DNA of 42,376 nt from Candidatus Oscillochloris fontis. GTDB taxonomy: Bacteria > Chloroflexota > Chloroflexia > Chloroflexales > Chloroflexaceae. The notes under the pieces were generated by a model. That model searched no databases and was not told the origin of the DNA. It worked only from the letters and a program-made list of their open reading frames with translations. Each line of letters opens with the position of its first letter. The first letter of the stretch is position 1. The stretch is taken from assembly GCF_004138135.1 (NCBI RefSeq), contig NZ_RYFD01000040.1, positions 1-42,376 on the forward strand, read 5' to 3'. This document shows positions 4,994 to 42,376 of this stretch, in pieces. The translations under genes were made by a program, and so were the position numbers.

Positions 4994-5020
4994 AGACGCA
5001 AGATATTGCGTCTCTACGCC
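4987..5020. repeat. Single palindrome of the TAGAGACGCAA / TTGCGTCTCTA family
   Basis: Fifteen-base arms (GGCGTAGAGACGCAA and its reverse complement) flank a four-base centre GATA. It is the same unit found four times at 1137-1240. It lies between the convergent histidine kinase and protoglobin genes, and its left arm contains the kinase stop codon. It can form a stable hairpin in transcripts from either side and may act as a bidirectional transcript end, although no uridine run follows on either strand. Confidence 0.88.
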
Positions 5021-5032
5021 CACCGGATTCCC

Positions 5033-5587: not shown

Positions 5588-5692
5588 CGTCGCGCTCCTT
5601 CAGCGGATTGCTGTCACATCATTGTTGTTGCCTAGGTTAATGGGCGTATTATAACGTATCCGTGTGACCCAACCCGGTGGGGATTCATGTAT

Positions 5693-5766
5693 GTAGGGGC
5701 GAAGCATCGCCTCCCAATATGTGTGGGCTTCCCCCGGCCATCTGGCGGGCGATGCTTCGCCCCTAC
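5693..5766. repeat. Inverted repeat, GTAGGGGCGAAGCATCGCC family, copy 2
   Basis: A near-perfect terminal inverted repeat: GTAGGGGCGAAGCATCGCC at the left and GGGCGATGCTTCGCCCCTAC at the right, 74 bases end to end. It fills much of the 207-base gap between the protoglobin start and the end of the O-antigen-ligase-like gene. No gene is visible in the rest of the gap. Confidence 0.88.
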
Positions 5767-5794: not shown

Positions 5795-7243
5795 TCAAGG
5801 ATTTTGCCCCCGCCCTAACCGGATTGCCAGCAGCATCCAAAAGGCGAAGGCCAGATCGGGCCAGAAGTAGAACGAGTCCACTAGCCCATGCACCAGGGCG
5901 GCACTCATCGCTGCACTGGCTCCGATCATCAACGCCGATGTGGGCGGAATCGGCTGGCGGTAGAAGCGCAACAGCAACCAGCCAACGGCAATGATGCCGA
6001 GTGGCCCCATGCGCAGGGCGATGTCGAGGATCAGGTTGTGGGGATGCGCGGTATGGATCTCATTCGTGCTGGCCAGTTCGGGGGCGATATAGTACGGGTA
6101 GATCAAGCCAAACTGATCCAGCCCGATCCCCAGCGGATGATCGCGCAGCATGGCCAGTGCCGAGGCCCAGGTTTGCAGGCGGATGCTGCTACTGCCTCCG
6201 ATCAGGTTGAAACGTTCGACACTGAAGGCGAGCACGAGCAACCCTAGCATGCCCACCAACCCCAAGCCGAGCAGAACCCGCCGGGGTGGGCGCAGATGGG
6301 CCGGGATGAGCGTGATGGCAAGGATGACCCCGGCGACCAAAGCCCCCAGGTAGGCTCCGCGTGAGAAGGAGGCCAGCAACCCGCCCAAACTGAGCAAAGT
6401 GAGGAGCAGCAGCGGCCATGCGCGGCGCAGCCGAGCCGCCCCGCCCGGCCCATGCCAGAAGGCGGCATGCGCCAGCGCTGCCGCAACCGGCCAGAGGCGT
6501 CCGAGGGCCAAACCGAGGTTGTTGGGGTGGCCGTAGAGGCCCGTGGCACGCCGCACGCCCTCGACGGCGATCAGGTCTTCACTGTAGCCGCTCTTAATGC
6601 CGATCAGCGGGGCCAGGTTGAGTCCCGCCAGTTGGAGGATGCCCACTAAGCCGACCAGCGCACCGCCACTCAGCCAGAAGATGATCAATAGATGGAGGTA
6701 CCTAGGGCCGCGTTGGTCGCTGTAGAAACGCAATAGCCCAAAGAAGATCAGTGGCTCGACGATCACCCAGCGTAGCTCGCGCAGCGCCGCGCCACGCGCT
6801 TCGGCGATCACAAAGCCCCACACGCCTGCGGCCAGAAAGAGGATAATCGGCAGGAGTGGGGCGGCTACGCCACCTCCGAAGATCTTTTTTGGTGTTTTTT
6901 GGCGGTGAAGCCGCCAAAAAACACCAAAAATCAGCAGCCGTAAACCCGCCCCAGCGAGAGTAATCAGCAGCACGACCTCGTGCAGTGGCACATAGATACC
7001 GCTCTCGCGGATGCCAAAACGGGCATCAAACAGCCCCTTGGGCATAAAATAGAGCGCCACCGTGAAGGGCACATAGGCCAGCGCCAGATCGGGACGCCAG
7101 AGCGCCAGCGGGGTGAAGATGGCTAATCCCAGGGCGGTGAAGGGCAGTTGGGCCGAGACCCGGTAGGCAATCAGTAACCCCAGCCCCATGGCGATGAGAA
7201 CGATGATCTCCTGACGGCTCAGGCGTTGCGACGGGTGCGCCAT
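5795..7243 (-). CDS. O-antigen ligase / polymerase-like (Wzy_C) membrane protein
   Basis: 482 residues from ATG 7243, chosen because GGAGG lies seven bases upstream; an extension to 7405 would overlap the upstream gene by a further 162 bases and reads as low-complexity Arg/Gly sequence. About eleven to twelve membrane segments. Wzy_C/RfaL-type features are SFSRGAYLGALVAG, the large extracytoplasmic loop with LRDHPLGIGLDQFG, and AHPHNLILDIALRMGPLG with its conserved histidine. Such proteins join or polymerise undecaprenyl-linked polysaccharides at the membrane. It overlaps the glycosidase gene by 25 bases (one operon). Residues about 105-129 (FGVFWRLHRQKTPKKIFGGG and following) are encoded by a palindromic repeat inserted in frame. 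Confidence 0.87.
   Translation of the reverse strand: MAHPSQRLSRQEIIVLIAMGLGLLIAYRVSAQLPFTALGLAIFTPLALWRPDLALAYVPFTVALYFMPKGLFDARFGIRESGIYVPLHEVVLLITLAGAGLRLLIFGVFWRLHRQKTPKKIFGGGVAAPLLPIILFLAAGVWGFVIAEARGAALRELRWVIVEPLIFFGLLRFYSDQRGPRYLHLLIIFWLSGGALVGLVGILQLAGLNLAPLIGIKSGYSEDLIAVEGVRRATGLYGHPNNLGLALGRLWPVAAALAHAAFWHGPGGAARLRRAWPLLLLTLLSLGGLLASFSRGAYLGALVAGVILAITLIPAHLRPPRRVLLGLGLVGMLGLLVLAFSVERFNLIGGSSSIRLQTWASALAMLRDHPLGIGLDQFGLIYPYYIAPELASTNEIHTAHPHNLILDIALRMGPLGIIAVGWLLLRFYRQPIPPTSALMIGASAAMSAALVHGLVDSFYFWPDLAFAFWMLLAIRLGRGQNP
6858..6930. repeat. Palindromic repeat inserted in frame inside the O-antigen-ligase-like gene
   Basis: The 73-base segment combines the GGCGGCTACGCC half, the connector GAAGATCTTTTTT, and the hairpin TTTTTTGGCGG-TGAAG-CCGCCAAAAAA with GGTGTT/AACACC extensions. 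The same order appears in the intergenic element at 14619-14767 and in its other copies. Here it lies entirely within coding sequence and stays open, adding a basic stretch of about 25 residues between two membrane segments. The downstream membrane topology motifs of the protein remain in frame. Confidence 0.85.
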
Positions 7244-14601: not shown

Positions 14602-14618
14602 ACCTCGCAAGTTCATGC

Positions 14619-14767
14619 AGGGCATGGGCAAAGTCACCTCCGGTGGGGGTTCGGGGGCGGCTACGCCGCCCCCGAAGATCTTTTTTGTTCTGTTTTGGCG
14701 GCGTAGCCGCCAAAACAGAACAAAAATGGGGCTTGGGGCGCAGCCCCAAAGACTTTGCACATGTCCT
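14619..14767. repeat. 149-base multi-hairpin element (fullest copy) flanked by 12-base direct repeats
   Basis: Terminal inverted repeats AGGGCATGGGCAAAGT (left) and ACTTTGCACATGTCCT (right, 14 of 16 complementary) enclose, in order, CACCTCCGGTGG, a GGGGGCGGC-TAC-GCCGCCCCC hairpin, the connector GAAGATCTTTTTT, a GTTCTGTTTTGGCGGC-GTA-GCCGCCAAAACAGAAC hairpin, and a TTGGGGC-GCA-GCCCCAA hairpin. The 12-base sequence GCAAGTTCATGC lies directly on both sides (14607-14618 and 14768-14779), as a target duplication would. It carries no coding capacity. The element lies between the second kinase gene and the methyltransferase gene. A second 149-base copy is at 39512-39660. Confidence 0.9.
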
Positions 14768-14790
14768 GCAAGTTCATGCGAGGAGATAGG

Positions 14791-26428: not shown

Positions 26429-26451
26429 TTGCCCTTGAACTCTCACCAGAC

Positions 26452-26586
26452 AGGGCATGGGCAACGTTCTTGGGGCTGCACCCCAAACTCCAATTTTTGG
26501 TGTGTTTTGGCGGCGCAGCCGCCAAAACACACCAAAAAAAGATTTTCGGGGGCGGCGTAGCCGCCCCCGAACCCCCACCGGAGGGT
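26452..26586. repeat. Multi-hairpin element, copy lacking one terminal repeat
   Basis: In inverse orientation to the copy at 14619: the terminal AGGGCATGGGCAACG is followed by TTGGGGC-TGCA-CCCCAA, the large hairpin TTGGTGTGTTTTGGCGGC-GCA-GCCGCCAAAACACACCAA, connector AAAAAAAGATTTTCG, a GGGGGCGGC-GTA-GCCGCCCCC hairpin and CCCACCGGAGGG. The distal terminal repeat is replaced by the TTGACG promoter region of the tRNA genes. It occupies the gap between the SbcD-like gene and the tRNAs. Confidence 0.88.
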
Positions 26587-26591
26587 AAAAA

Positions 26592-26620
26592 TTGACGCCG
26601 TAGGCGACCTCTGCTATAAT
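26592..26620 (+). promoter_or_regulatory. Sigma-70-type promoter of the tRNA genes
   Basis: TTGACG (26592-26597), a 17-base spacer, TATAAT (26615-26620); transcription is expected to start about six bases before the tRNA-Leu 5' end. It is almost the consensus promoter and abuts the end of the multi-hairpin repeat. Confidence 0.85.
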
Positions 26621-26631
26621 CCACCCGTTGC

Positions 26632-26717
26632 GCCGAAGTGGCGGAATGGCAGACGCGACGGTCTCAAAAACCGTTGAGGGCAACCTCATGTGGGTTCGAG
26701 TCCCACCTTCGGCACCA
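26632..26717 (+). tRNA. tRNA-Leu (anticodon CAA)
   Basis: 86 bases with encoded CCA. The acceptor stem GCCGAAG pairs with CTTCGGC, followed by ACCA. The anticodon stem ACGGT/ACCGT encloses the loop CTCAAAA with anticodon CAA, reading UUG. The long variable arm TGAGGGCAACCTCA is characteristic of leucine tRNAs, and the T arm GTGGG-TTCGAGT-CCCAC is intact. A near-consensus promoter lies just upstream. Confidence 0.96.
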
Positions 26718-26739
26718 TTCGCCGCTCTAGCAGTTTCGT

Positions 26740-26816
<77 letters not shown>

Positions 26817-32311: not shown

Positions 32312-32332
32312 GGCGTGTGCCGTTGCATCATG

Positions 32333-32425
32333 TTTGTCATGGTTTTGGCGGCGAAGCCGCCAAAACCATGACAAAAAAAGTGTGGGGCGGCGAAGCCGCC
32401 CCACACCCCACCGCCGCAGGCGGAT
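32333..32425. repeat. Double hairpin of the multi-hairpin element between convergent genes
   Basis: TTTGTCATGGTTTTGGCGGC-GAA and its exact reverse complement give a 20-pair perfect stem (32333-32375), followed by AAAAG and a second stem TGTGGGGCGGC-GAA-GCCGCCCCACA (32381-32405), then CCCACCGCCGCAGGCGG. The A run gives a minus-strand U run, so it is a plausible terminator for pckG on the minus strand, and the hairpins can end the family-5 binding protein transcript. Confidence 0.88.
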
Positions 32426-34399: not shown

Positions 34400-34414
34400 A
34401 GCCCAACGTAACAT

Positions 34415-34488
34415 GTAGGGGCGAAGCATCGCCTACCAATGTAGTCCATGTTCCCCATGCCACATTGAGGGCGATGCTTCGCCCCTAC
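34415..34488. repeat. Inverted repeat, GTAGGGGCGAAGCATCGCC family, copy 4
   Basis: Left arm GTAGGGGCGAAGCATCGCC and right arm GGGCGATGCTTCGCCCCTAC are perfectly complementary over 18 bases; total length 74, exactly that of copy 2 at 5693-5766. The interior differs between the copies. It lies between the divergent pckG and secG genes. Confidence 0.9.
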
Positions 34489-37143: not shown

Positions 37144-37162
37144 GCATTCAAGAAGGAAATGT

Positions 37163-37262
37163 CAAGGGGCTATGCCCCAAAGCCTAATTTTTTGGTGTTG
37201 TTTGATGGCACAGCCGCCAAACAACACCAAAAGAGATCTTCGGAGGCGGCGCAGCCGTCACC
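37163..37262. repeat. Partial multi-hairpin element between tetR and the binding-protein gene
   Basis: GGGGC-TAT-GCCCC, then TTTGGTGTTGTTTGATGGC-ACA-GCCGCCAAACAACACCAAA (with one mismatch in the stem), then the connector GAGATCTTCGGAGGCGGC-GCA-GCCGTC. The order matches the other copies; the terminal inverted repeats are absent. It abuts the stop codon of the minus-strand binding-protein gene. Confidence 0.85.
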
Positions 37263-39188: not shown

Positions 39189-39448
39189 CAAAAAACCCCG
39201 CAGCCATTGGCTTCGGGGCAGGCAGACGGATATCGCAGAGGAACGGCACACTGCCGCACCTACGCAACTATACGGCGAAGAAGAGCGCAACCTCCAGGAG
39301 GCTGCACAATCATACCGTCGTCTGCACGATCTCCTTTACATCCGGACTGTAACCGTCGGCCCCGGAGTTTCACCGGATCATGCGTGCCTCGCAACACGCT
39401 CGTGGGCTCTACCACCGATCGGGAATTTCACCCTGCCCCGAAGATCGT
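39189..39448 (-). ncRNA. FMN riboswitch (RFN element) with terminator expression platform
   Basis: On the minus strand the aptamer (39448-39326) shows the RFN signature: CTTCGGGGCAGGGTGAAATT, CCCGATCGGTGGT, AGCCCACGAGC, GATCCGGTGAAACTCCGG, GGCCGACGGTTACAGTCCGG, and ATGTAAAGGAG. P1 pairs ACGATCTTC (39448-39440) with GGAGATCGT (39334-39326). Downstream, CCTGCCCCGAAG (39222-39211) is exactly complementary to aptamer strand 39443-39432 (antiterminator) and is also the 5' arm of the terminator. The ribX start lies about 30 bases beyond. FMN binding should favour the terminator, an OFF switch. Confidence 0.95.
39190..39218 (-). terminator. Intrinsic terminator of the FMN riboswitch
   Basis: On the minus strand CCCCG-AAGCC-AAT-GGCT-G-CGGGG forms a stem with a small internal asymmetry, followed by TTTTTT (39195-39190). 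Its 5' arm lies within the segment complementary to the aptamer 5' strand, so it competes with the antiterminator. Confidence 0.85.
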
Positions 39449-39464
39449 CAATTCATTTGGGTTC

Positions 39465-39493: not shown

Positions 39494-39511
39494 GCGACGT
39501 GAGACGCAAGT

Positions 39512-39660
39512 AGGGCATGTGCAACGCCCTTGGGCTGCGCCCCAAAACCCAGTTTTTGGTATTGTTTGGCGGCGAAGCCGTCAAACAATACCAAAAAAAG
39601 ATCTTCGAGGGCGGAAAAGCCACCCTCGAACCTCCACCGGAGGTGACGTTGCACATACCC
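39512..39660. repeat. Second 149-base copy of the multi-hairpin element
   Basis: Ends AGGGCATGTGCAACG and the near reverse complement CGTTGCACATACCC. Interior order: TTGGGC-TGC-GCCCCAA, TTTTTGGTATTGTTTGGCGG and its pairing partner CCGTCAAACAATACCAAAAA, connector AAAAGATCTTCG, GAGGGCGG-AAAAG-CCACCCTC, and CCACCGGAGGTG. It has the same length as the copy at 14619 but opposite orientation. Half of a GTAGGGGCG-family arm (GATGCTTCGTCCCAC, 39661-39675) adjoins it. No target duplication is evident here. Confidence 0.9.
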
Positions 39661-39752
39661 GATGCTTCGTCCCACAATGCCTAGGCACAGGCGTAGGAAG
39701 TATGGTATGATCGATCTCACGAAACGACTGTAATAGCTTGAGGGACAGCACC

Positions 39753-42174: not shown

Positions 42175-42199
42175 TGAGGATGGCGTCCTGAAGCCATAA

Positions 42200-42376
42200 G
42201 GATAGACCCATGTGCGCTCCCTCTGCGCCCCTCCCCGTCCTCTGCGGTCAACAGCCATACCTCCCGGTTATTGACCGCAGAGGACACAGAGGGACGCAGA
42301 GGATAGACCCATGTGCGCTCCCTCTGCGCCCCTCCCCGTCCTCTGCGGTCAACAGCCATACCTCCCGGTTGTTGAC
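42200..42376. repeat. Tandem 101-base repeat reaching the window edge
   Basis: Copy 1 (42200-42300) and copy 2 (42301-42376, cut by the window edge) are identical except for one base (A at 42270, G at 42371). Each unit contains the inverted repeat GTCCTCTGCGGTCAA / TTGACCGCAGAGGAC (for example 42237-42251 with 42271-42285). The right outer part is CTCTGCG/CGCAGAG-rich, like repeats of the CTCTGCGTCC type that occur in many environmental genomes. No gene is visible in 42101-42376. The array probably continues beyond the window. Confidence 0.9.

Follow-up and report, generated by a model that had tools for sequence, protein, structure and literature searches.

Introduction

The best-known examples of mobile palindromes captured in frame come from Rickettsia. 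The Rickettsia palindromic elements (RPEs) are, like the repeat described here, mobile palindromes approximately 150 bp long that lie in frame inside host genes. In R. conorii, nearly half of the RPEs are located in genes, and a comparable mechanism is considered conceivable for other prokaryotes, according to a review (PMC10969869). MITE-type repeats such as QMITE1 and QMITE2 of Coxiella and intragenic ERIC occasionally extend or interrupt genes in frame, as stated in two papers (PMC5896051, PMC10969869). A further group of palindromes, the REP elements, is 20-40 bp in length (PMC3733652).

We analysed a stretch of 42,376 nucleotides (hereafter, the window) from Candidatus Oscillochloris fontis, whose genome assembly (G000) comprises 4.46 Mb in 139 contigs. 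A preliminary description of the window had proposed that a palindromic repeat lies in frame in an O-antigen-ligase-like gene. In the literature searched, which consisted mostly of papers open without subscription, we found neither a name for this element nor a report of different repeats recurring at one orthologue loop.

Results

The host gene and the in-frame copy

The gene carrying the repeat belongs to the O-antigen ligase family. A Pfam search assigned its product to Wzy_C, and the predicted model of the protein matched the WaaL O-antigen ligase (7tpg_B) with a Foldseek E of 3.7e-5 and the Z score given in Table 1 over 343 residues. When the solved structures were searched by sequence, the protein gave one match at E 0.83, which was no relative. 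Related ligases were found at nine loci in named records, from uncultured Oscillochloris, Oscillochloris sp. ZM17-4, and other Chloroflexi/Chloroflexales. A longer frame is open from GTG 7405 but overlaps the neighbouring gene. Since the majority of orthologue matches set in around residue 60 of this longer form, close to the ATG, the start is probably ATG 7243 instead.

The proposal of an in-frame palindromic repeat in this gene proved correct, and the profile search delimited the copy to 77 bases (Table 1). The open frame passes straight through it and is kept over approximately 103 and 353 codons on the two sides. The element encodes approximately residues 104-129 of the 482-residue protein, IFGVFWRLHRQKTPKKIFGGGVAAP, a segment to which FWRLHRQKTPKKIFGGG belongs and which has a net charge of +5. 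Folding of the central hairpin gave -32.5 kcal/mol, compared with -13.0 +/- 2.7 kcal/mol in shuffled sequences, and none of the 200 shuffles was as good. When a 74-base query was searched against the source genome, 75 matches were obtained on both strands, a count that rests on the scoring of 40 out of 267 candidates and in which one palindromic copy may appear twice; among the other copies, the best was 93% identical. The in-gene copy has neither of the terminal inverted repeats nor the first hairpin of the family, and is thus trimmed and presumably immobile. No target duplication was found at this copy when its flanks were scanned for direct repeats 8-10 bases long, allowing up to one mismatch; visual inspection showed a 9-base near-repeat (8/9), which overlaps the left junction and is too weak for use.

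We also confirmed the suggestion that the same reading phase is open in other copies: it was open in 74 of the 84 copies covering the 77-base stretch, the window copy included. The mean number of open frames in the element core was 4.9 of 6 in these 84 copies, whereas dinucleotide shuffles averaged 3.9, and 77-base stretches drawn at random from the genome 3.2. The tolerance of the element to translation is mostly a matter of composition, with a modest excess.

Table 1 Features in the window (positions in the window).
Feature	Position	Strand	Evidence
O-antigen-ligase-like gene (Wzy_C, WaaL fold)	5795..7243	-	482 codons + stop; PF04932 E 1.2e-20; WaaL 7tpg Z 18.1
In-frame MITE fragment: central hairpin and most of the next one	6857..6933	-	nhmmer E 6e-22, model positions 41-117; translation
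Central hairpin, two perfect 20-base arms, 5-base loop	6886..6930	.	folding
Full-length MITE, 151 bp, 10-bp duplication CAAGTTCATG	14618..14768	-	terminal-repeat pair, nhmmer
MITE, right end diverged, between larger ORFs, upstream of two tRNA genes	26451..26602	+	structure model, nhmmer, ORFs
Partial MITE, between larger ORFs	32329..32421	+	nhmmer E 3.5e-12
Partial MITE, between larger ORFs	37158..37262	+	nhmmer E 9.6e-21
Near full-length MITE, between larger ORFs	39511..39662	+	structure model, nhmmer

The repeat family is a MITE

The palindromic repeat family is a MITE, that is, a non-autonomous DNA transposon. The element is approximately 150 bp long and has 18-bp terminal inverted repeats, CAGGGCATG(T/G)GCAAAGTC, three internal hairpins and 10-bp target-site duplications; it is short, has no transposase and is present in high copy number. 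A search of the source genome for the terminal motif, with up to 2 mismatches allowed, gave 130 forward and 131 reverse matches (261), versus 2 and 1 (3) for the reversed control. In a 1.24-Mb sample consisting of 60 stretches of the source genome and the window, the profile search detected 150 non-overlapping matches; 32 were full length, and 51 spanned at least 60 model positions yet reached neither end. The mean column identity of 15 aligned copies was 91%. In 9 of the 58 predicted pairs, at least one sequence was changed on both sides with the pairing kept, and three of these nine pairs are in the central hairpin and jointly involve the largest number of sequences. The structure model was used to score 150 copies out of 3,267 first-look candidates, and the weakest had an E of 1.5e-10.

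Target-site duplication was evident from 37 complete pairs of terminal repeats 40-200 bp apart. Their mean flank identity was 71% at exactly 10 bases, compared with 27% (maximum 36%) after shuffling, and fell within the shuffled range at 8, 9, 11 and 12 bases. The 10-bp flanks agreed at 8 or more of 10 positions in 23 of these pairs, and the pair length was 150-153 bp in 24 and 68-137 bp in 13. The duplications are thus of fixed length in the family, and none was seen at the in-gene copy. The terminal motif matched 49-183 times in each of five same-genus genomes, versus 5-14 times in ten genomes from nine other genera of the family, suggesting that the MITE is a genus-level family.

Searching for an autonomous element with the same ends, we checked four loci of one transposase family, DDE_Tnp_1, and found only weak unpaired look-alikes. 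A terminal-repeat pair 1,120 bp apart (L101:15629-16748) was also considered as the autonomous partner and was ruled out, as it consists of a transporter-like gene of 301 codons between two separate MITE copies in inverted orientation, the 1,120 bp being measured between their outer ends. This gene and its flanking MITEs could in principle be movable as a unit. A second terminal-repeat pair in the window is 4,580 bp apart. At the right end of the MITE (e.g. in the copy at 14618-14768), the ribosome-binding-site-like sequence CCGGAGGTGACTTTG stands beside the terminal repeat; some of the copies, several in number, are located in gene leaders that are open.

At the Rfam gathering score, no family lay over the repeat, and the only hits in the window were an FMN riboswitch (39325-39449, minus strand), which adjoins the last MITE of Table 1, and the two tRNA genes (26632-26813, plus strand) downstream of the copy with the diverged right end. 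The window also contains further small palindromic repeats of the AGACGCAATATCTTGCGTCT and TAGGGGCGAAGCATCGCC families (1144-1245, 4994-5025; 5691-5766, 34413-34488) and, at its end, a 77-bp direct repeat with 99% identity (42199-42376).

In-frame copies inside conserved proteins among the sampled matches

The preliminary description regarded the element as intergenic elsewhere, and the sampled matches agree with this. Thirteen of the 150 cross a frame that is open for at least 50 codons on each side, and 59 lie in frames open for 25 codons on each side, part of which were scanned with Pfam. In 34 ORF queries to Pfam, some ORFs being entered twice in different lengths, the best domain was downstream of the element or there was no domain. 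Only one of the 150 matches, the window copy, is shown to lie inside a conserved protein (0 of 149 without it); this figure refers to in-frame copies, includes the very copy that drew attention, and leaves ORFs without a Pfam match unassigned. Therefore, the MITE is not a Rickettsia-style protein-inserting family.

Several candidates for further in-gene copies were rejected. The copy at L087:6103-6235, with 350 and 240 codons on either side, had the appearance of a mid-gene insertion; its two halves, however, match different places in relatives, and the upstream half has stops in 8 of 10 matches, so that this copy is, as judged from these matches, most likely an intergenic one read through by chance. 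The copies at L120, L109, L124, L089, L103, L104, L092, L086, L090 and L113 were all upstream of the best Pfam domain, and so lie in leaders or possible N-terminal extensions. Pfam gave no match for the ORFs at L076, L080, L087:12404, L099, L123 and L074, for those at L078, L095, L097, L111, L122 and L126, or for the long open frames at L142, L143, L144 and L117:13730-13863, the last four being occupied by full or nearly full MITEs.

Comparison with orthologues

Besides the gene in the window, 29 ligase loci were fetched, of which 27 cover the insertion place. The match to the G003 ligase covers residues 383-530 only. The element-encoded residues were carried by none of these 27 loci, and no orthologue with the same residues and no palindrome was found, in line with the proposal that the stretch is foreign to the protein. 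The element is absent from the closest orthologues, which show 70% identity, and its insertion therefore appears to be recent in the source lineage.

The preliminary description further stated that the element adds about 25 residues. This was not borne out by the distance between the conserved PLHE and LRELR motifs, which is 73 residues in the host protein and 60, 65 and 71 in the same-genus genomes G001, G002 and G004. It was 65-85 in 19 of the 20 other orthologues measured and 110 in G016, a set that omits a few further orthologues not fitting the search expression. Since the loop is of ordinary length, the element mainly stands in for native loop rather than lengthening it.

Position of the loop in the protein

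The claim that the insertion lies between two membrane helices is supported by the predicted model, which is a weak one (8 sequences, mean pLDDT 70.7). In this model a helix spans residues 87-113, residues 112-127 have a pLDDT below 50, and the next helix begins at 127; the fragment covers the end of the first helix, the low-confidence loop and the start of the second. Five RodA/FtsW-type chains align with the model from residue 120-129 on, at their N-terminal ends. The N-terminal ends of such chains are cytoplasmic. The loop is therefore predicted to face the cytoplasm, and probably does so; the net charge of the encoded stretch is in line with this orientation.

Other repeats in the same loop of relatives

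The corresponding loop contains other repeats in several related genomes. In G004 it carries a CTGCCTC heptamer array; this pattern had 171 + 216 matches in the G004 genome (control, 0), 76 in G003 and at most 5 in each of 14 others. In G005 (L054) it carries a GGGGGTT array, at which the ligase frame is broken. This pattern matched 113 + 165 times in the G005 genome, 107 times in G003, 10 in G004, 5 in G002 and not at all in the other 12 genomes; its control was uninformative because the reversed pattern is the same array. All of these pattern counts include overlapping matches within one array. The G016 loop holds the palindrome GGCTTCGACAGGCTCAGCC, whose core TTCGACAGGCTCAGCC gave 189 + 218 matches in the G016 genome and 0 in the control. 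The same core has 46 + 37 matches in the source genome of the window. A heptamer, GCATTCC, was read from the sequence of the G010 loop. The G004 ligase (L067) also has a second heptamer-type stretch, read as GREAGGGRREAGGGRRQAAGG, in another loop.

The loops of G001 and G002 contain inverted repeats with 15- and 13-base arms, respectively, as good as which none was found in 300 single-base shuffles. These were expected to be genome repeats and proved to be single-copy, with weak partial matches elsewhere. In a first inverted-repeat scan with spacers of up to 40 bases, the loops of G004, G005 and G010 were no better than shuffles; at spacers of up to 60 bases, the G005 loop gave 15-base arms as a consequence of its array. 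Eleven same-family orthologues had no inverted repeat in the loop in this kind of scan.

Among the 30 ligase loci including that of the window, a perfect inverted repeat was present in the ligase gene of 8 genomes, and in 5 of these 8 it lay in this loop, which makes up approximately 7% of the gene. The probability of this by chance is 7e-5, or 7e-4 without the source genome (4 of 7); both figures assume that the genomes are independent, and the test was made after the loop had attracted notice.

Discussion

Taken together, these findings indicate that the 77 bases are very probably what trimming has left of a copy of a genus-level MITE, lying in frame within an interhelical loop of the WaaL-type ligase that is not conserved and tolerates it. 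The MITE would have been moved by a transposase acting in trans, and both of its ends would have been lost at or after insertion into the ligase gene. The fragment would now lie in a loop facing the cytoplasm, and the segment would be translated. Its survival may be explained by a loop that accepts almost any soluble, basic linker, and may have been helped by the element, most of whose frames contain no stop codon; the stretch it encodes would then be a spacer, putatively with no function of its own. Over time, such a loop would turn over through chance capture of the repeats present. From the sequences compared, we consider a permissive loop with this kind of turnover to be the simplest account and the best reading.

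We weighed four other explanations. That the stretch is native protein sequence resembling the repeat by chance, or even the source of the repeat, has one point in its favour, the missing terminal repeats of this copy. With a match to the repeat model at E 6e-22, perfect arms of 20 bases, residues that none of the 27 other covering loci carries, and a repeat family bearing the marks of transposition, the probability of this explanation is close to nil. Assembly can be misled by a high-copy repeat, and the copy might have been misplaced into the gene in a chimera. The frame, however, is kept over the long open stretches on either side, this copy differs from the full form in being trimmed, and a usual read is longer than the repeat, so we regard a chimera as highly improbable.

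The remaining two concern the role of the stretch. A basic, partly helical MITE-coded stretch may have been useful in the ligase loop, which would make it a domesticated mobile element. Both its frame and its hairpin are preserved, the phase in use yields a stop-free linker of charge +5 that fits a cytoplasmic loop, and many other orthologue loops also have several basic residues; against such recruitment, the loop varies in sequence, length and composition even among same-genus orthologues, and the ligases of relatives do with unrelated repeats or with no repeat at all, which makes recruitment unlikely in our judgement. We would give slightly less credit still to a contingency site at which heptamer arrays phase-vary the ligase by slippage and the palindromes represent another version of that switch. 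Heptamers, which are not multiples of three, are arrayed in the loops of G004 and G005, the frame in G005 breaks off at the array, and another G004 loop has a second array of the same kind. Such arrays are, however, abundant elsewhere in those genomes, so that chance capture suffices; the break in G005 could be an assembly error, and the copy in the window is a hairpin with no tandem array.

As for the related species, several different repeat types appear to have entered the same loop of a single protein. Throughout a bacterial family, one cytoplasmic ligase loop may recurrently serve as an acceptor site, each lineage independently filling it with repeats that are spreading in its own genome; we put this forward tentatively, giving it somewhat less than an even chance. 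If it is true, selfish or simple DNA would repeatedly become protein at the same place and, in the heptamer-carrying species, the repeats may also switch the ligase gene on and off. Such loops would offer a natural series for how repeats become protein, namely which frames survive, how far loops of membrane proteins tolerate them, and whether they are neutral or act as switches.

Comparison with known systems

The host protein shares its fold with the WaaL O-antigen ligase in addition to its Pfam domain, and the interhelical loop bearing the repeat is not conserved among its relatives. REP elements, like the present repeat, are small, abundant intergenic palindromes; to our knowledge, they have no MITE-type terminal repeats. 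QMITE1, QMITE2 and ERIC occur in other phyla. By description, QMITE1, QMITE2 of Coxiella and intragenic ERIC share with the present case a MITE-type repeat in frame; the present MITE differs in its 10-bp duplications and in that both ends have been trimmed from its gene copy.

The preliminary description had likened the insertion to the RPEs. The likeness holds in that both are in-frame palindromic mobile repeats, and fails in frequency: one of 150 sampled matches is shown to lie inside a conserved protein here, versus nearly half of the RPEs in genes in R. conorii according to the review (PMC10969869). Since frequent in-gene insertion was not seen, the present case is classed as an in-frame MITE rather than an RPE, one that works like an RPE insertion, and another lineage now shows a case of such capture. 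In-frame MITEs are already known; the recurrence of repeats at one loop is the unusual part.
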